In this document: piece after piece, positions 2,483 to 50,478 of the stretch | How the letters are laid out: every line of letters begins with the position of its first letter | Numbering within the stretch: the stretch's first letter is position 1 | Notes under the pieces: model-generated | Databases searched by the model: none | Seen by the model: only the letters and a program-made list of their open reading frames with translations | Told to the model about the DNA's origin: nothing | Position numbers and translations under genes: made by a program | Assembly: GCA_950096615.1 (NCBI GenBank) | Contig: CATNCP010000020.1 | Coordinates: 1-50,807, forward strand | DNA length: 50,807 bases | Direction: 5' to 3' | Origin: an uncultured Kangiella sp. | Lineage (GTDB): Bacteria > Pseudomonadota > Gammaproteobacteria > Enterobacterales > Kangiellaceae

Positions 2483-2554
2483 ATAATGGTTGATAGTAGG
2501 AACCATCAGAAACTTGCGTTACACTTAAACCAATTTCAGAAACTGTAAATCCTC

Positions 2555-5284
2555 ATGTCAGAAAAACAAAGCCCTTTCATCCTTGTTGATGGTTCTTCGT
2601 ATCTATTTCGTGCTTACCATGTGCCGCAGTTACAGCGCATGACCAATTCCGAGGGCATGATGACTGGCGCAGTATTTGGCGTCATCAACATGCTGAAAAG
2701 TCTGATTAATGAATATCAGCCGACACATATGGCGGTGGTGTTTGACGCTAAGGGCAAAACTTTTCGCAATGACTTGTACCCTGAATACAAAGCCAATCGC
2801 CCGCCGATGCCAGAAGACTTACGTCAGCAAATTGAGCCAATCCATCAGATTGTAGAAGCAATGGGCTTGCCTCTCCTCGTAATAGATGGGGTAGAGGCTG
2901 ATGACGTGATTGGCACACTGGCCAAGCAAGCATGTGCCGAAGGCCGTGAAACGGTGATCTCTACCGGCGATAAGGACATGGCGCAGCTAGTCAGTGACAA
3001 TGTGACTTTGATTAATACCATGGATAAAAATAACCCTGTCACGGATTACGACCGAGTGATTGAAAAGTTTGGCGTTAAGCCAGACCAAATTATTGATTTT
3101 CTGGCTTTGGTTGGTGATAAGGTTGATAACATTCCTGGGGTTAATAAATGCGGCCCGAAAACTGCGGTAAAGTGGCTGAATGAATACGGTTCGTTAGAAG
3201 GCGTGATGGAGAATGCGGATAAGATTGGCGGCAAGATTGGTGAGAATTTAAGAGAAGCGCTCGAGCAGCTACCGCTTTCTTATGAGTTAGCAACGATCAA
3301 GCTCGACTGTGATTTAGAGTTTAAACCGAGTGAGCTAAGCCTCAAAGAGCCAGAGCTTGCACAGCTCAAGGACTTGTATGGGAAGATGGAGTTTCGTCGT
3401 TGGTTAACGGAAGTACTAAAAGAGGCGGGCGAAGATCTTGCTGAAGGTGAGGATGAGGCTGAAGAGTCAGCGATTGACCGCAGTAAGTATGAAACCATTC
3501 TTACCCAAGAGGAACTGGATAAGTGGCTAAAAAAATTAGAGCAATCTGAGTTATTTGCCTTCGATACGGAAACCACCAGTTTAAATTATATGGAAGCTGA
3601 TTTGGTTGGCATGTCCTTTGCGCTCGACAATGGTGAAGCAGCTTATTTACCAGTTGCTCATAGTTATATGGGGGCACCGGAACAATTAGACCGTGATGAT
3701 GTTTTAAAGCAAATGAAATCGTTGCTAGAAAGTGAGGACATAAAAAAAGTAGGGCAAAACCTCAAGTATGATATGAGTGTTTTGGCTCGTTACGACATTA
3801 CGCTCGGTGGTATCGAGTTTGATACCATGCTTGAGTCATACTGCTTGAATTCAGTTGCAAGTCGTCACGATATGGACTCCTTGTCTTTAAAATACCTCAA
3901 TCATGCCACCATTAAATTTGAGGAAATTGCTGGTAAGGGCAAGAATCAGCTGACATTTGATCAAATCGAGCTAGAAAAAGCAGCCACTTATGCGGCAGAA
4001 GATGCAGACATTACTATGAAACTGCATCAAAAGATATGGGGAGATTTGGAGGGAGAGGAAGGTCCGGCGCAGGTATTCAGACATATCGAAATGCCATTAT
4101 TGCGGATATTGTCAAAAGTTGAGCGTAATGGTGTGTTGGTTGACGGTAAATTGTTATTAGAAAAAAGCCGCCAATTCGAACAGCGACTTAAAGAAATTGA
4201 ACTAGAAGCGTTCGAGCTTGCGGGTAAAGAATTTAATCTTGGCTCTCCAAAACAGTTACAAGCTATTTTGTTTGAAGAATTAGAACTTCCGGTGATTAAA
4301 AAAACACCGAAAGGACAACCCTCAACGGCAGAAGAGGTGCTACAAGAGCTTGCATTAGATTACCCGCTACCAAAACTAATCTTAGAGAATCGTGGTTTAA
4401 GTAAATTGAAATCGACTTATACCGATAAGTTGCCGAAGATGATTAACCCTGAAACTAAGCGCGTCCATACGTCATATCATCAGGCTATTGCGGCTACAGG
4501 ACGATTATCATCGACTGAGCCAAATTTACAGAATATTCCGATTAAGTCACCAGAAGGGCGGAGTATACGTACCGCGTTTATTGCATCTGAAGGCTGTAAG
4601 GTTTTAGCCGCGGATTACTCGCAAATTGAACTGCGGATTATGGCTCATTTATCTCAGGACAAAGGGCTACTCAAAGCGTTTGAAGAAGGGCTGGATGTTC
4701 ACTCAGCGACGGCTGCAGAAGTATTCGATGTAGACTTAGACGACGTTAGCCCTAATCAACGACGTGATGCCAAAGCGATTAACTTTGGTCTAATTTATGG
4801 CATGTCAGCTTTTGGTCTGGCAAAGCAAATAGATGCGGATAGGAATACTGCGCAGGATTACATTAATACTTATTTTGCACGATACCCTGGCGTAGAAGCC
4901 TATATGGACAGTACTCGAGAAAAGGCGGCTGATAAGGGCTATGTTGAGACTCTGTACGGCCGTCGTTTGTATCTCCCTGAGATCCACTCGAAGAACGGGA
5001 TGCGTCGTAAAGCAGCTGAAAGAACGGCTATTAATGCCCCGATGCAGGGGAGCGCAGCAGACATTATCAAACTAGCGATGATCGAAGTCGATAAGTGGCT
5101 AAAAGATCAGCCGGGTATCAAGATGATTATGCAGGTTCATGATGAATTGGTGTTCGAAGTCGAAGAAAAATATCTGGATCTAGCGAAAGAAAAAATCCCT
5201 GAGTTAATGGAAAGTGTTGCAGAACTATCAGTTCCGCTAATCGCAGAAGTTGATGTGGGCGATAACTGGGAAGAAGCGCACTAA
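2555..5284 (+). CDS. polA: DNA polymerase I
   Basis: A 909-residue, full-length family A polymerase for Okazaki-fragment processing and repair synthesis. The N-terminal 5'-3' exonuclease domain (about 1-290) has the acidic motifs DGSSYLF, EADDVIG and GDKDMAQL. The 3'-5' proofreading domain (about 310-500) keeps its first metal motif D337-x-E339. The polymerase domain shows motif A at D687 (DYSQIELR), motif B ([14 protein letters not shown]) and motif C H862-D863-E864. All three activities should therefore be present, as in the E. coli enzyme of 928 residues. It is monocistronic, with a hairpin terminator after the stop and the putative sRNA gene downstream. Confidence 0.98.
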
Positions 5285-44132: not shown

Positions 44133-46997
44133 ATGACTGATAAAACTAGCTTGCAAGATTTACAACAGTCGGATGATTTTATCCGCCGTCATTTAGGCCC
44201 TCGTGAGAACGAGATTCAGGAAATGCTCAGTGAGTTGGGCTTGTCTTCGTTAGATGACTTAGTGGAAAAGGCTGTTCCGCATAAGATTCAAGTGAAAGAA
44301 CCGATTGCTGTGGAAGCGTCGCGTTCTGAACGTGAAACTTTGAATTACTTGCAGTCGCTTGCAGACGAAAATATCGTTGCTAAGTCATACATTGGTATGG
44401 GTTATTACGACACGGTAACGCCAGCAATTATTCAGCGTAACGTACTTGAGAACCCAGCATGGTACACGGCTTATACGCCATACCAACCTGAAATCGCGCA
44501 AGGTCGTTTGGAAGCTATCTTAAACTTCCAGCAAATGACGATGGATTTGACGGGTATGGAATTAGCCAGCGCGTCATTGTTAGATGAAGCGACCGCCGCT
44601 GCCGAAGCTATGGGTTTAGCCAAGCGCTCGTCTAAAAACAAAAAATGTAATACCTTCTTTGTTGACGAGAAAACATTTCCACAGACAATTGATGTGGTCA
44701 AAACCCGTGCTGAGCATTATGGCTGGGATTTAATCATTGGTCCGATTGAAGAAGCTGCCGATCACGATGTGTTTGGTGCTTTATTGTCATACACCAATGT
44801 TCACGGTGATATTACCGATCTAGAAAGTATCATTGAAAAACTGCACGAAAAGAAAGCCATTGCTTGTGTCGCCGCAGATATTATGAGTTTGGTGCTAATG
44901 AAGTCTCCAGGTGAGATGGGTGCCGATGTGGTGTTCGGTTCAGCCCAGCGTTTTGGTGTTCCGATGGGCTTTGGTGGTCCGCACGCAGCCTTCTTTGCGA
45001 CACGTGATTCATTTAAGCGTTCGTTACCAGGTCGTATTATAGGTGTTTCAAAAGATACCCGTGATAATAATGCATTGCGTATGGCGATGCAGACTCGTGA
45101 ACAACATATTCGCCGCGAAAAAGCGACTTCGAATATTTGTACTGCGCAGGTGTTGTTAGCCAATATCGCTAGTTTCTACGCGGTTTACCACGGTAAGAAA
45201 GGTCTAACAACGATTGCTAGTCGTATCAATCGTTATGCTTCGATTGTTGCATCAGCAGTTGTTAACTCTGGCATGGAAGTAGTGAATGAGCACTGGTTTG
45301 ATACCGTGACATTCCGCGCTTCAGATGTTGAGGCTATTCAAGACCGTGCGAAAGAAGCACTCGTAAACTTACATTACAGTGACGACTTAGTGAGCTTCTC
45401 CATCGATGAAGCGAAAAGCCAAGCGGACATTGAGCAATTAATCGAAGTAATTACTGGAGCTGAGTCTGATATTTTTGAATTAGACAGTGAGGCTCAATCT
45501 TCTATCCCAGAGCAATTAGTTCGTCAATCCGACTTCTTAACGCACCCAACCTTTAACGACTACTATTCTGAAACGGATATGCTGCGTTATATCAAGCGTT
45601 TAGAAACCAAAGACTTCTCACTGGTACACGGCATGATCCCGCTAGGTTCATGTACGATGAAGTTGAATGCGACCAGCGAAATGATGCCGGTTACTTGGCC
45701 AAAGTTTGCAACTATTCACCCGTTCGCTCCTGAAGATCAGACTTATGGCTACATCAAAATGATCAAGGAGTTAGAAGCAGACTTAGTCGAGATTACAGGT
45801 TATGACTTTGTCTCGATGCAGCCAAACTCTGGCGCACAAGGCGAGTATGCGGGCCTGATTGCTATTAAGAAATACCATGAAAGTCAGGGCGAAGGTCACC
45901 GTAACATTTGCTTGATTCCAAGCTCAGCGCACGGCACGAATCCAGCATCAGCACAGATGGCTGGTATGAAAGTGGTTATTACTAAGTGTGATGACAACGG
46001 TAACGTTGATGTTGACGATCTGAAAGCTAAAGCTGAAGAGATGAAAGACAACTTAGCGGCACTGATGGTGACCTATCCTTCGACGCACGGCGTTTACGAA
46101 GAAGAAATTAAAGATATCTGCGACATCATTCATGACAACGGCGGGCAGGTTTATATGGATGGCGCCAACATGAATGCGCAGGTGGGTATTTCTCGCCCAG
46201 GTGATATCGGTTCAGACGTATCACACTTAAACTTACACAAAACATTCGCTATTCCACATGGTGGTGGCGGTCCGGGCATGGGGCCTATTGGCGTTAAGTC
46301 GCACTTGGCACCTTTTGTGTCGGGTCACTCAGTACGTAAAGTGTATAGTGTTGAAGCGCGCGACAACGCTGTGTCAGCGGCTCCTTATGGCAGCGGTATG
46401 ATCCTTCCGATTTCATGGGCTTACATCAAAATGTTAGGCCAAGTTGGTTTACGTCGCTCGACAGAAGTTGCGTTATTAAACGCTAACTATCTGAAAAACA
46501 AGCTATCTGCACACTACCCAGTGTTGTATGTGGGCCGTAACGACAAGGTGGCGCATGAGTGCATCATTGATTTGCGTGATATTAAAAATGAAACGGGCAT
46601 CAGTGAAGTCGACTTTGCTAAGCGCTTGATGGACTATGGCTTCCACGCGCCAACTATGAGTTTCCCAGTAGCTGGGACTTTCATGATTGAACCAACAGAA
46701 AGTGAATCTAAGTACGAATTGGATCGCTTTGTCGATGCCATGATCCGCATCCGTCAGGAAGTAGAGAAAGTCGCTAGTGGCGAATGGGATAAAGAGAATA
46801 ATCCTCTAACCAACGCTCCGCATACACAGGCTGACCTTCGTGACTGGGATAAACCTTACTCAATTGCAGAAGCCGTTTACCCATCAGAAGCAACAGTTCT
46901 AAGCAAGTTCTGGCCTACGACGAACCGTATTGACGATGTGTTTGGTGACAGAAACTTAATGTGTAGTTGCCCTGCAACAGAGACTTACGCAGACTAA
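44133..46997 (+). CDS. gcvP: Glycine dehydrogenase (decarboxylating), P protein
   Basis: A 954-residue fused alpha-beta PLP enzyme that decarboxylates glycine and loads the aminomethyl group on GcvH. Recognised from IRRHLGP at the N terminus, SYIGMGYY, the [19 protein letters not shown] segment, [26 protein letters not shown], and the PLP lysine in [17 protein letters not shown]. The length matches E. coli GcvP (957). The Shine-Dalgarno is weak (ATAGGT). An intrinsic terminator sits just upstream, and another closes the gene. Confidence 0.98.
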
Positions 46998-47025
46998 CGG
47001 TTCTGTGAACTGAGTACTTGACTCG

Positions 47026-47053
47026 AAAAGCCAGCGTTAGCTGGCTTTTTTTA
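47026..47053 (+). terminator. gcvP terminator
   Basis: Stem AAAGCCAGC/GCTGGCTTT with loop GTTA and a T7-like run, identical in stem and loop to the one at 5638-5665. It marks the left edge of the accessory borosin segment. Confidence 0.85.
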
Positions 47054-47122
47054 TATTGCTAGGGTATAAATGGAGCGTTTGGCTTGATACGCATGTATTA
47101 CAGGGAATATTAAGGAACTACT

Positions 47123-47344
47123 ATGTCTAAAAAGAAATTTGAAGAATTCGTCATTAAATTATCGGAAGACCCAAAACTAAACCAATCGTATGTAGAAAAT
47201 CCAGAAGCAGTAATGAAGGATTTTGGCTTAGAAGATAATGAAATAAAAGCTGTAATGAGTGGAGAAACAGAAGAGATTGAAAAGTTAACAGGCACTAAGG
47301 CGGTTTGTATTAATATCGTTATGCTAATGAAAGATGATAAATAA
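47123..47344 (+). CDS. Putative split-borosin precursor peptide
   Basis: A 73-residue peptide with AAGGA 7 bases before its ATG. Residues 1-56 look like the small helical binding domain of split-borosin precursors (related in pattern to Nif11/LigA-type leaders): FEEFVIKLSEDPKL, then ENPEAVMKDFGL, then EIKAVMSGE. The C-terminal 15 residues change to a hydrophobic beta-prone tail, V61-C-I-N-I-V-M-L-M69, ending KDDK. That tail is the likely region of backbone N-methylation. The gene overlaps the methyltransferase gene by 11 bases. By analogy with the SonA/SonM pair of Shewanella, the precursor binds the enzyme through its helical domain. Which residues are methylated, and whether the tail is cleaved off, is not visible. 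Confidence 0.85.
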   Translation: MSKKKFEEFVIKLSEDPKLNQSYVENPEAVMKDFGLEDNEIKAVMSGETEEIEKLTGTKAVCINIVMLMKDDK

Positions 47345-48116
47345 AAAAAAAGGCTCGTATATTGCGGTTAGTACCGGGATATTACTTGCAGGCCACATCT
47401 CTGTTCGAGCAAAAAAGGTTATCGAGGAGGCTGATGTAGTGTTATCGCTGATGCCTCACCCTATAGCTGAAAACTGGTTGGATAGTATCAGCAGGGAGCA
47501 TATTAGTCTGCAATCCTATTATTCGGAAGGAAAACATAGAAAACAATCTTACAGCGAGATGTGTGAGCGTATACTAGAAGAAATTCGTAAGGGTAAACGT
47601 GTCTGTGGAGCATTTTATGGACATGCTGGTGTTTTCGCTTGTGTACCACATGATTCAATCAAGTTAGCTCAAGAAGAAGGATTCTCAGCCTATATGGAGC
47701 CGGGAATTTCTGCAGAAGCTTGTCTATATTCAGACCTAGGCATCGACCCAGGAAGTTTTGGTGTTCAAAGCTATGAAGCTTCTCAATTTCTGTTCTATGG
47801 GCATCAACCGAATGTCGTCAGCTATCTGCTATTATGGCAAGTTGCATTGGCAGGAGAGCTAACGGCAAAAACATTTAAAACTAGCGAGAAAAATATAGAA
47901 GCTTTAGTGAAGTACCTCTTAAATTGGTACCCACCTGAGCATGAAATTATACTGTATGAAGCAGCATTTTTACCGTTAGATTCGGTTAGAAAAGAGAAAA
48001 TTAAGATTGTAGACTTACCAAGTACAGACTTAAATCTTCATACTACATTGGTTGTTCCTCCAGCTAGAAAAATGAATATTAACAAAGAGTTAGTGGAGAG
48101 ATTAGAAGTGGGTTGA
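47334..48116 (+). CDS. Borosin-type peptide alpha-N-methyltransferase (TP-methylase fold)
   Basis: A 260-residue SAM-dependent methyltransferase of the tetrapyrrole-methylase superfamily. It carries borosin signatures: GSYIAVSTGILLAGH (SAM loop), Y63-x5-R69-x3-Y73 in YSEGKHRKQSY, FYGHAGVF with Y95, and MEPGISAEACLYSDLGIDPG followed by SYEASQFL. The spacing of Y63, R69, Y73 and Y95 equals that of the catalytic Y66, R72, Y76 and Y98 of fungal OphMA, shifted by 3. It lacks the fused core peptide of fungal enzymes, so it is the split bacterial type. The proline of the usual YGHPG is alanine. It starts inside the precursor gene, so translation is coupled. A run of 9 A lies in its first codons. Confidence 0.92.
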   Translation: MINKKKGSYIAVSTGILLAGHISVRAKKVIEEADVVLSLMPHPIAENWLDSISREHISLQSYYSEGKHRKQSYSEMCERILEEIRKGKRVCGAFYGHAGVFACVPHDSIKLAQEEGFSAYMEPGISAEACLYSDLGIDPGSFGVQSYEASQFLFYGHQPNVVSYLLLWQVALAGELTAKTFKTSEKNIEALVKYLLNWYPPEHEIILYEAAFLPLDSVRKEKIKIVDLPSTDLNLHTTLVVPPARKMNINKELVERLEVG

Positions 48117-48180
48117 GTTCAATCAATTGATGGACAAATACAGGTTTGTAAAAGTGCAGTTTTAGAAGGATAATTAAACT

Positions 48181-49263
48181 ATGATAGAAAGCCAGGGATT
48201 ATCAATGCTTAAACTAGTGTTAATACTGATGATGTTGCTTTGTGTAACTACGGTGGAAGGGGTGGAAAATAAAGATTACACAACGGAATTAGTGGAAATA
48301 GAAAAAAAACTTCTGAATGACTTGCCTGCGTCACGTGAACGTTTAAACCTCATCGGGCAGCACAAAGATGACTTGTCTGTTAAAGAAAGACAGCATCACA
48401 AGCTATTGAGTGCCCACCTACTTTTCATGATGAATGATGTTGATAAAGCTAAGCTATACTTAGAAGAGCTTCCAAGTGATCAGTTAAGCCCCGATCATGA
48501 TGCAAGAAAGCAAATGCTATTATCAGCAATTTATCACCATAAAGGCGAAAGCGTTAAGGCCTTCATCGCTGTTGACCGTTCATTAAGTTTAATGGAGAAG
48601 TTAAATAGCGAACGTTATAAGTCAAAAATATTAATAGGTGCGGTGGGGATATATAAAGATGCGGACTTAATCGAGTTTGCTTTAGAGTATGGGCGCAGAG
48701 CTATAACCCTTGCTAACGAAAGTAAAAATGGTGAAACCATGTGTCTGGCTTCATACGAAATGGGAACTATTGAGTTATTGACTAAAAATTATAAGATGGC
48801 AGAAAACCGTCTATTAACAGCAAAAGAGTATTGTGGGAAAGAGAAAATTGTAGTCGCTTCGTTCGCAATTGAATACAGCCTGATGCAGTTAAAGATAGAA
48901 ACTGGCAAGATTGAAAGTGCTGAAGCCATTGCTAAGGATTTACATGCTAAAGTAGAAGACTATGGGTGGGATGTCTTAAGATCTGCAACTAAAACTTTAT
49001 ATGGAAGATTGCTCCTAAAAAAAGGCGAATTCGAATTAGCTAAAAACTTTGGTGAAGCAGGTTATAAACTAGCAAAAAAAGTTGAAGATAAAAAAAGAAC
49101 AGAAAAAGCCGCCGCACTTTTAGCAGAGGTTTACACTGAGCTTGGCGACAATGATGAAGCAGTAAACTATTATAAAGAGTATATGGAATTAAATGTTCAG
49201 GGGAAAGTTAGGACAAGGCAGAGAAAGCTAGCATTTGATATCGCAAGACGAGGACAGCTTTAA
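48181..49263 (+). CDS. Exported TPR protein 1 of the borosin segment
   Basis: A 360-residue protein with a signal peptide (hydrophobic core about 11-22) and then a solenoid of about seven TPR-like helix pairs. It includes EFALEYGRRAITLANES, YEMGTIELLTKNYKMAENRL and LAEVYTELGDNDEAVNYYKEY. It ends with VRTRQRKLAFDIARRGQL. That ending resembles the junction between periplasmic TPR sensor domains and the following membrane helix in GGDEF or histidine-kinase proteins, but the protein stops there, so it looks like a free-standing sensor domain. AAGGA lies 10 bases before the ATG; an ATG 8 codons inside is an alternative start. It follows the methyltransferase by 64 bases. Confidence 0.7.
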   Translation: MIESQGLSMLKLVLILMMLLCVTTVEGVENKDYTTELVEIEKKLLNDLPASRERLNLIGQHKDDLSVKERQHHKLLSAHLLFMMNDVDKAKLYLEELPSDQLSPDHDARKQMLLSAIYHHKGESVKAFIAVDRSLSLMEKLNSERYKSKILIGAVGIYKDADLIEFALEYGRRAITLANESKNGETMCLASYEMGTIELLTKNYKMAENRLLTAKEYCGKEKIVVASFAIEYSLMQLKIETGKIESAEAIAKDLHAKVEDYGWDVLRSATKTLYGRLLLKKGEFELAKNFGEAGYKLAKKVEDKKRTEKAAALLAEVYTELGDNDEAVNYYKEYMELNVQGKVRTRQRKLAFDIARRGQL

Positions 49264-49265
49264 GA

Positions 49266-50333
49266 GTGATAGTGAAGGTAAGTAAAATTATATCTGCGCT
49301 TGTATTAATAATAGCTGCTGTGACAGTTAGTGCTGAAAAGGGTGACTACTATGAAGAGCTTGTTAGTATTGAGAGGAACATGCTCAACGGAAATAGCTAT
49401 GTTGAGAAGCGGCTAAAAGAGATATCACATCAACAAGTTAAATTCACACGACTAGAAAAAGATTTTTATAAGCTCCTACAAGCTCATCACGATTACCTGT
49501 CATCAAACTTAGATTCTTGTAAAGAGATTGCTAGAGAATTAATAAAAGAAACTAAAAGCATTGATATTAAAGCGAAAGCAAATATTCTATTAGCAACTGC
49601 AGAGCACGTTTTAGGTAATCATGTAGACAGCTTCATCGCTCTTGATAAAGCAGTTTCAGCTGTTCCAAATCTAACAAGAGAAAGGTACAAAGCCAGTATT
49701 CTTCAAACAGCAGTTGGTATATATCAGCAGGCTGAACTATTTGAGTTTGCGCTTGAATTAGCTCGAAACTTACAAGTTGAAGCGAGAAAGTTAAAACACG
49801 GTGAGTACCTCTGTATTGCTAATTATGAATTAGGAGCTATAGAGCGAAGAGTTGGGCAAATTAAAATGGCTAGACAGCGTCTTATGCTGGCGGTTGAGTA
49901 TTGTAAAAATAACGAAAGTAAGATCTTTGAGTATATCTCAATAATAACCCTAAACGAGATAAACGCAGACTTAGGGAAGGTGGAAAAAAGCAATCAAGAA
50001 CTAAAGAAAATTATTAAGCCAGTAAATACTATAGGTTGGAAAAATTTAATTGCACAGTTGAATATAGCTATTTCAAAAAATTATTTCAAATTGGAAAACT
50101 ATAGTCAAGCAGAGCAATACGCGTTGAATGCATATAGCAAAGCAAAAGAAGGAAAAGATAGACGTAGATTACAAATAGCGGCAGAAGTCTTAGCTCAAAT
50201 ATACTCAAAAATCGATAATAAAAAAGAAGCATTGAAGTATTACAATGAATATAGGGAGTTAAATTCTGAAAATAAAATAAAGGTAAGACAAAGGAAACTT
50301 GCTTTTGATATCGCACAAAGAAAAGAGCGTTAA
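49266..50333 (+). CDS. Exported TPR protein 2 of the borosin segment (paralogue of 1)
   Basis: A 355-residue paralogue of the preceding gene, aligned throughout. Shared are the signal peptide, an E-L-V-x-I-E opening, FIALDKAVS / FIAVDRSLS, the SERYKSKIL / RERYKASIL segment, EFALE, YELGAIERRVGQIKMARQRL and the same end VRQRKLAFDIAQR. It starts with GTG 3 bases after the stop of copy 1; the poor Shine-Dalgarno suggests translational coupling. The sequence is strongly A+T-rich. No catalytic motif is present. It could sense or bind a secreted product of the borosin genes, or be unrelated cargo. Confidence 0.7.
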   Translation: MIVKVSKIISALVLIIAAVTVSAEKGDYYEELVSIERNMLNGNSYVEKRLKEISHQQVKFTRLEKDFYKLLQAHHDYLSSNLDSCKEIARELIKETKSIDIKAKANILLATAEHVLGNHVDSFIALDKAVSAVPNLTRERYKASILQTAVGIYQQAELFEFALELARNLQVEARKLKHGEYLCIANYELGAIERRVGQIKMARQRLMLAVEYCKNNESKIFEYISIITLNEINADLGKVEKSNQELKKIIKPVNTIGWKNLIAQLNIAISKNYFKLENYSQAEQYALNAYSKAKEGKDRRRLQIAAEVLAQIYSKIDNKKEALKYYNEYRELNSENKIKVRQRKLAFDIAQRKER

Positions 50334-50337
50334 GTTT

Positions 50338-50478
50338 ATGTATATTAAAACGATATTATTAATAGGTACTCTGTACTGTCTAACTCATGGTTTAGCTAGC
50401 GCGGACTATTTTTCTCAGTTAAAGGGGATAGAAAAGCAAAGGCTAAATGACTTAGTAGGCACTAAACTGCCTCAGTAA
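50338..50478 (+). pseudogene. Truncated third TPR paralogue joined to the mutH 3' end
   Basis: A 46-codon open frame begins 5 bases after copy 2: a signal-peptide-like N terminus (KTILLIGTLYCLTHGLASA), then DYFSQLKGIEKQRLNDL, which aligns with the beginning of mature TPR protein 1 (IEKKLLNDL). Homology then stops abruptly near 50451. The last codons (VGTKLPQ and stop) are simply the reverse complement of the end of mutH. The remaining 300 or so codons are missing. This is a broken copy left by deletion or insertion at the mutH boundary. Confidence 0.75.

Follow-up and report, generated by a model that had tools for sequence, protein, structure and literature searches.

Split borosins, whose peptide backbone alpha-N-methyltransferase and precursor peptide are encoded by separate genes, are widespread in bacteria, and types IV-X have been defined (PMC11285071, PMC11395268). 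The best-described type IV system is the SonM/SonA pair of Shewanella oneidensis (PMC8429565; PDB 7LTC and others), in which SonA L63 and I65 are the methylated residues and mutation of SonM Y58, R67, Y71 or Y93 lowers activity; as of the 2021 SonM/SonA paper, no split borosin pathway had yet been linked to a final natural product (PMC8429565). Likewise encoded as separate enzyme and precursor, a pair of this kind is found in the 50,807-nt contig CATNCP010000020.1 (C20) of an uncultured Kangiella sp., the whole of which is hereafter called the window and which belongs to a genome assembly of 2.57 Mb (GCA_950096615.1). This pair is followed by tetratricopeptide repeat (TPR) genes, and we infer from sequence comparisons that the N-methylated core of the precursor would be the ligand of the TPR sensor, in a pheromone-receptor system with pherotypes. 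The window locus thus probably makes a split-borosin peptide signal together with its sensor.

Several peptide signalling systems offer points of comparison. The RRNPP family (Rap, NprR, PlcR) comprises peptide pheromone receptors of Gram-positive bacteria in which, as in the window, a TPR superhelix of similar size is encoded beside a small precursor peptide gene. RRNPP receptors are cytoplasmic, whereas the window-type sensors are predicted to be periplasmic or membrane-spanning, and split-borosin sensors differ further in their GGDEF or histidine kinase outputs and in the proposed backbone methylation of the peptide. These sensors may work like RRNPP receptors, but their Cys pair and predicted N-terminal signal or membrane stretch keep them from being filed as members of that family. 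In the comQXP and agr systems a single operon encodes a modifying enzyme, a short peptide and a sensor, and the stretch for the peptide and the ligand domain is a polymorphic block; the borosin loci compared here share this operon plan and polymorphic block, but differ in chemistry, receptor fold and their Gram-negative hosts. A TPR domain likewise controls a GGDEF domain in RcbAB of Vibrio vulnificus, which differs in being predicted to be cytoplasmic and in having a TPR protein as partner, with no mention of a methyltransferase in the main text (PMC12282931). In the open-access papers searched, borosin never occurred together with diguanylate, tetratricopeptide or cyclic di-GMP (c-di-GMP); subscription papers on split-borosin clusters lie outside that scope and may hold an earlier remark on such neighbours. 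By title, none of the open-access texts pairing borosin with quorum sensing was about split borosins.

The borosin pair and its TPR neighbours

The preliminary description had placed a split borosin pair at 47123-48116 between gcvP and mutH, and the open reading frames (ORFs), the flanks and the homology to SonM/SonA all agree with this placement. A 73-aa ORF (47123-47344) and a 260-aa ORF (47334-48116), both on the + strand, share 11 nt, methyltransferase and precursor being separate adjacent genes as a split borosin (type IV-like) requires. The predicted precursor, encoded by the shorter ORF, has a helical SonA-type leader (borosin binding domain, BBD) followed by the core VCINIVMLMKDDK at about residues 61-73 (nt 47303-47341, limits inferred by alignment). 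Its residues 7-61 matched SonA (E 7e-10), and once aligned (offset 2) the two precursors have the same length; a match to Pfam LigA (E 0.0013) fell below the cut-off of that family. By gapless alignment with SonA L63/I65, N-methylation is predicted at precursor I65 and M67. It was also observed that SonA-type precursors of other loci (L190 7136-7351, L261 1337-1549) were matched by phmmer to TAL effector repeats of PDB entries, where no single stretch passed alone, probably reflecting summed weak helix similarity.

The longer ORF encodes a SonM homologue, predicted from homology, key residues and tree to be a peptide backbone alpha-N-methyltransferase. Its match to crystallised SonM had an E of 4e-78 and those to fungal borosin enzymes ranged from 9e-43 to 3e-38, while no cobalamin enzyme scored better than 0.018; an NCBIfam scan of the enzyme returned nothing above a cut-off. 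It is 47% identical to the enzyme of Shewanella sp. ANA-3, which is itself 261/263 identical to SonM. Residues Y63/R69/Y73/Y95, singled out earlier as borosin residues, do align with SonM Y58/R67/Y71/Y93, and among 185 aligned distinct sequences (window included, ORFs outside 200-460 aa left out) Y63, R69 and Y73 were conserved in 185/185 and Y95 in 184/185. A grouping with cobalamin/sirohaem or other TP-methylases, named in the preliminary description as a ground for doubt, was not recovered: in the tree a branch with support 99/99 separates the SonM-like proteins from the CysG and RsmI of the window genome, with very long outgroup branches and a bootstrap that was not fully settled. An identity as siroheme/cobalamin or rRNA methylase was ruled out by E values, key residues and tree. 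Key residues, aligned precursor length and a hydrophobic C-terminal core are common to SonM/SonA and the window pair; the window differs in gene order (precursor-enzyme-TPR-TPR versus enzyme-precursor-TPR-GGDEF), in its TPR sensors without output domain and in the core VCINIVMLMKDDK. Judged from sequence, the pair is a split borosin of a known kind, here in Kangiella.

Downstream on the + strand lie TPR1 (48181-49263, 360 aa), a predicted periplasmic TPR sensor without output domain that has an N-terminal signal and a Cys188/Cys218 pair, and its paralogue TPR2 (49266-50333, 355 aa, 34-35% identical), also with an N-terminal signal. The presence of TPR neighbours had been noted correctly, but the idea that they make the cluster distinct did not stand, as nearly all close relatives have TPR genes. 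SonM homologues were found in 64/149 related genomes (E 1e-3; the weakest, in G056, being a short match) and in 20/20 genomes of the genus, window genome included. The relatives set, composed of 97 stretches around matches together with the window and locus L003, held 105 SonM ORFs, near 90 of which a BBD precursor was recognised. A same-strand TPR gene lay within 2.5 kb of 96 of the 105 and within 3.2 kb of 100, the latter distance having been picked after three cases at 2.56 kb were seen. The five others comprise two loci (L073, L089) whose closest TPR-GGDEF gene is on the other strand, two that sit on a short contig or at the edge of one (L058, L125) and one from which the gene is truly absent (L120).

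Similarly, in a named set of 80 loci, a TPR gene stood beside 80/81 SonM ORFs; being the best 80 of 581 confirmed matches, this set leans to close relatives (its eight closest loci are from Kangiella or Kangiellaceae), and it partly overlaps the relatives set, with the same species in part. In a phylum sample, 20/397 genomes were positive and 10/13 SonM ORFs of the newly added stretches had a TPR gene. The 200 full-length SonM ORFs of all sets dereplicated at 90% identity to 159, mostly from close relatives, and a TPR gene was found on the same strand within 3.2 kb in 147/159: 103 with TPR-GGDEF, 25 with TPR-histidine kinase and 19, window included, with TPR and no recognised output, a class in which a few receptor ORFs are split or short; the remaining 12 had none. 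The association is seen in several different gene orders, namely precursor-receptor-SonM, SonM-precursor-receptor and precursor-SonM-TPR.

The same genome carries, on contig C23, a second precursor and a second SonM, 46% identical to that of the window. The gene between them encodes a protein of 572 aa that combines TPR repeats with a single internal membrane segment and a GGDEF domain; its intact GGEEF motif is preceded by an RPVD stretch that reads as an I-site. The only genome-wide relatives of TPR1 at E 1e-5 or better were TPR2 and the sensor part of this protein, and therefore all three such sensors lie at the two borosin loci. As a side observation, loci L042 (genome G003), L056, L057 and L059 each carry two SonM genes and two precursors in tandem, with differing cores.

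The TPR and BBD profiles were trained on the loci in which they were counted, and the association was also followed by other means. In a position control on 88 SonM genes in long loci (profile trained on the same loci, loci with two SonM genes counted twice), 96 TPR ORFs lay no more than 2.5 kb away, another 15 between 2.5 and 4.5 kb and a single one between 4.5 and 8 kb. In the reverse control, the second-locus receptor gave 394 matches in the 20 Kangiella genomes, mostly through GGDEF, and the 21 best all lay beside SonM while the next ten did not. A chance origin of the TPR neighbours was dropped after these two controls. Moreover, Pfam models, independent of the trained profiles, recognised TPR_12 in 33, HATPase_c in 21, HisKA in 20 and a receiver domain in 4 of 36 neighbours, a selection deliberately enriched in proteins that lack GGDEF.

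With membrane segments called by a simple hydropathy rule, the receptors of relatives had an internal segment in 54/55 GGDEF and 23/23 kinase forms, and an N-terminal hydrophobic segment in 39/55 and 21/23, respectively. The latter was also present in 19/22 stand-alone TPRs of relatives, and it is the only segment in window TPR1 and TPR2. Equivalents of TPR1 Cys188/Cys218 were both present in 44 of 49 sensors and both absent from 5, the histidine-kinase types of that alignment, with one alone in 0; this all-or-none pattern fits a disulfide and hence the periplasm, which the TPR sensors probably face. AlphaFold2 modelled TPR1 as a TPR superhelix (pLDDT 93) and the second-locus receptor as a TPR superhelix, one 100-residue helix with the membrane segment, and GGDEF (pLDDT 89, pTM 0.59). 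The best Foldseek matches of TPR1 in the PDB were LGN complexes, followed by Rap receptors (E 9e-7), several of which contain a pheromone peptide, NprR also appearing; since TPR folds resemble each other, the Rap match is only a hint.

Covariation of core and sensor

In Shewanella, a SonM homologue was found in 111/129 genomes (E 1e-60), and of the 62 loci that matched best, each from a different genome, 60 were taken (G124 and G614 left out). A precursor and a TPR gene were present at 60/60, with GGDEF in the same ORF in 58/60. Locus L261 encodes exactly the crystallised SonA and SonM, with a TPR-GGDEF gene beside the precursor, so that the model system itself has the receptor adjoining; SO_1480, the likely name of this receptor gene as guessed from gene order, has no mention in the open-access papers searched. 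Distances were compared in 52/60 loci, 8 being dropped where the GGDEF stretch could not be cut out, and the same was done for a close subset of 17 loci, L261 among them, with SonM 78-99% identical (3/20 dropped). In the close subset, core distances correlated with those of the TPR (0.80) and not with those of SonM (-0.04), leader (0.06) or GGDEF (-0.02), and the core-TPR partial correlation was 0.83, a value reached in 0/1000 permutations. After inspection of the sequences these loci were divided into two core types, of 10 and 7 loci; TPR identity was 57-99% inside a type and 44-53% across types, whereas the median identities within and between were 89/89% for SonM, 84/85% for GGDEF and 86/88% for the leader.

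Peptide core and sensor ligand domain thus vary together in Shewanella against conserved flanks. For example, L261 and L259 are 91-100% identical in DNA across the enzyme gene and leader, but only 42-61% between the start of the core and the end of the TPR domain; identity is again 81-96% in the membrane helix and the greater part of GGDEF (nt 2521-3240), and it falls to 74% in the final stretch of the receptor gene. The breaks coincide with the leader/core and TPR/membrane borders. Upstream of SonM, the region at about nt 181-450 (L261 against L259, L260, L270 and L275) was observed to be highly variable too, and core type alone does not explain this variability.

In Kangiella, gcvP stands beside the SonM locus in 15/19 other genomes of the genus, and mutH in 14 of those 15, the remaining one being a short contig. 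Compared with Kangiella taiwanensis KT1 (G001, locus L043), the window is 98% identical in gcvP and 94% in mutH, and the two genomes share 92% identity in the second-locus SonM and 88% in the second-locus receptor, against just 52% in the window SonM. A SonM tree forced to join the window and G001 was rejected (approximately unbiased test, AU, p 5e-7), as was a gcvP tree forced to the SonM grouping (AU p 8e-10), both groups having been picked after the identities were known. The DNA identity between the two is low from about 47250, immediately ahead of the core, to about 49200, where TPR1 ends, so delimiting a differing block (47250-49200, + strand) with the precursor end and core, SonM and TPR1; TPR2 (79% identical) and the first part of the leader lie outside it. 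Read from DNA identity and trees, core, SonM and TPR1 are swapped as one block in Kangiella. Moreover, across 15 loci of the genus, SonM and the first TPR had a partial correlation of 0.83 given gcvP, with 0/2000 permutations as high. As a further observation, synonymous divergence (dS) between L037 and the window was 0.29 for the precursor and 0.38 for SonM against 0.99 for gcvP, which suggests recent between-species exchange of the precursor-SonM part.

The proposed pheromone system and its alternatives

In the proposed mechanism, the SonM homologue would bind the helical leader and N-methylate the hydrophobic core, by analogy with SonA probably at I65 and then M67. The core would be released by a protease encoded elsewhere than the gcvP-mutH interval and would reach the periplasm; backbone methylation may make it resistant to proteases and able to cross membranes without an exporter. 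The core would then bind the periplasmic TPR superhelix, as the co-segregation of core and sensor suggests. In most close relatives and at the second locus a single membrane helix appears to link the TPR domain to a GGDEF diguanylate cyclase, and elsewhere to a histidine kinase, so core binding would alter c-di-GMP or phosphorylation. Since window TPR1 and TPR2 have no output domain, the output may lie elsewhere or the TPRs may sequester the peptide, and a sequestration or immunity role for the window locus is possible.

On a broader scale, and with confidence only a little better than even, it is proposed that gammaproteobacterial split borosins are backbone-methylated pheromones with periplasmic TPR receptors driving c-di-GMP synthesis or phosphorelays, that pherotypes are maintained across species through replacement of the core-plus-sensor block, that SonA of S. 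oneidensis would be one of these pheromones, and that the window would represent the free-sensor form. That sensor sequence follows core gives split borosins a testable role, naming ligand and receptor, and the idea is directly applicable to the model S. oneidensis system, whose structures are solved. If it is true, backbone-methylated ribosomal peptides would join the known bacterial signals, and a class of TPR diguanylate cyclases would gain candidate ligands.

Other explanations have to be weighed against this proposal. The methylated peptide could be an antimicrobial weapon, with periplasmic TPRs protecting the producer and receptor forms reporting the peptide, and the stand-alone periplasmic TPRs, their one to four tandem copies, the fast divergence and the block replacement at a fixed site would all fit a toxin-immunity pair. 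This is nevertheless unlikely, considering that 128/147 TPR partners have GGDEF or histidine kinase outputs, as expected for sensors, that the gcvP-mutH interval contains no exporter ORF, and that inspection by eye revealed none among the 14 neighbour families most often seen in other genera, which were identified only in part. Equally, the product could be an ordinary secondary metabolite tied to c-di-GMP, the TPR receptor sensing something else and merely controlling the operon or the lifestyle. Lower-scoring GGDEF proteins with partial sensor coverage do occur away from SonM, and a TPR domain can regulate a cyclase via a protein partner, as in RcbAB (PMC12282931); such an arrangement is quite improbable, however, when in the 17 close Shewanella loci core type tracks the sensor and not output, leader or enzyme, and when the TPR is kept while outputs are exchanged.

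A third explanation would be linkage only, in which one recombining block makes core and TPR diverge jointly with no ligand relation. In Shewanella the core end and the TPR gene start are separated by a few bases, so that a single block could indeed move both without binding, and this is the chief weakness of the pheromone proposal. The match between the identity breaks and the functional limits of core and sensor, together with the persistence of the association across several gene orders, favours selection on the pair, and linkage only is judged very improbable. It is scarcely credible, finally, that the window enzyme is not a peptide methyltransferase, being inactive or acting on another substrate. 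This would rest on the replacement of YGHPG by YGHAG, a change that the preliminary description had reported correctly but had taken as distinctive: the Ala form is common in relatives (28/205 SonM ORFs of a redundant set) and present at the gcvP-linked locus throughout the genus, and the enzyme keeps the key residues, falls in the SonM clade and adjoins a SonA-like precursor.

Several observations do weigh against the pheromone-receptor proposal. Neither a protease nor an exporter ORF is present between gcvP and mutH, the window TPR proteins themselves carry no output domain, and the Kangiella block contains SonM, which moved along with core and TPR1. The simple hydropathy rule called no N-terminal segment in 16/55 GGDEF receptors and an internal one in 5/22 stand-alone TPRs, and among the structural matches of TPR1 eukaryotic LGN outranks Rap. 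Over all 52 Shewanella loci the covariation is less clean, core distances correlating with TPR (0.85), leader (0.78), GGDEF (0.68) and SonM (0.54), with partial correlations of 0.53 for core-TPR and 0.27 for core-GGDEF, each with 0/1000 permutations as high. The receptor-coupled SonM genes do not form a cleanly supported clade, and 3/13 SonM ORFs of the phylum sample had no TPR gene. A plasmid search gave 13 records, all of distant relatives, and in the 5 taken as contrast (Streptomyces, Bradyrhizobium, Sinorhizobium, Burkholderia and Azospirillum) a TPR gene stood beside 0/6 SonM ORFs; the TPR link is therefore not general to borosins. In one of them, Bradyrhizobium plasmid p155_2 (L218), a split borosin cluster of a different style was observed, with two methyltransferases, a TauD-type dioxygenase, a small protein and a prolyl oligopeptidase, and no TPR gene was found in it.

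Flanking features and a possible acid-tailed subtype

The borosin pair is preceded by gcvP (44133-46997; Pfam GDC-P 5e-187). A terminator-like hairpin after it (47025-47050, + strand; 11-pair stem and T tail, by consensus match only) suggests that the borosin genes are probably a separate transcription unit. A weak promoter-like site, TTGATA-16-AATATT (47084-47111, + strand, 9/12 positions), lies ahead of the precursor, in a region where the promoter scan was uninformative, with 14 such sites against 10 +/- 3.6 in shuffles, a difference that is not significant. On the other side, mutH follows on the minus strand (Pfam MutH 2e-8), and its match begins at profile position 65, which indicates that the contig end cuts off the start of the gene. 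Beside the mutH end lies a remnant of a third TPR gene (50338-50478, + strand), with a signal peptide and about 25 further residues, whose best matches are the starts of second-to-fourth TPR genes in L037, L039, L040, L041 and L043. Some close species retain a whole third or fourth copy, and stand-alone TPR genes number one to four among close species.

Some of the loci surveyed (L196 5242-5886, L208 3478-5313 and similar) encode precursors with a long acidic tail, in which a core such as IVCMLVPAE is followed by D/E runs. These accompany a GNAT acetyltransferase gene within 4.5 kb, and in some cases also a pepsin-like aspartic protease. In the relatives, GNAT was found at 23/27 acid-tailed precursors (9 with protease) against 4/63 others (0 with protease), and at 9/15 loci without a recognised precursor (protease in 5). 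The named set gave 29/33 (14 with protease) against 2/42 (1), and 6/6 without precursor (protease in 2). The numbers were 1/5 acid-tailed (0 protease), 0/4 others and 0/4 without precursor in the phylum sample, and 1/4 others and 0/2 without precursor in the plasmid records. From this company, GNAT and the aspartic protease look like the release and capping enzymes of a second subtype.
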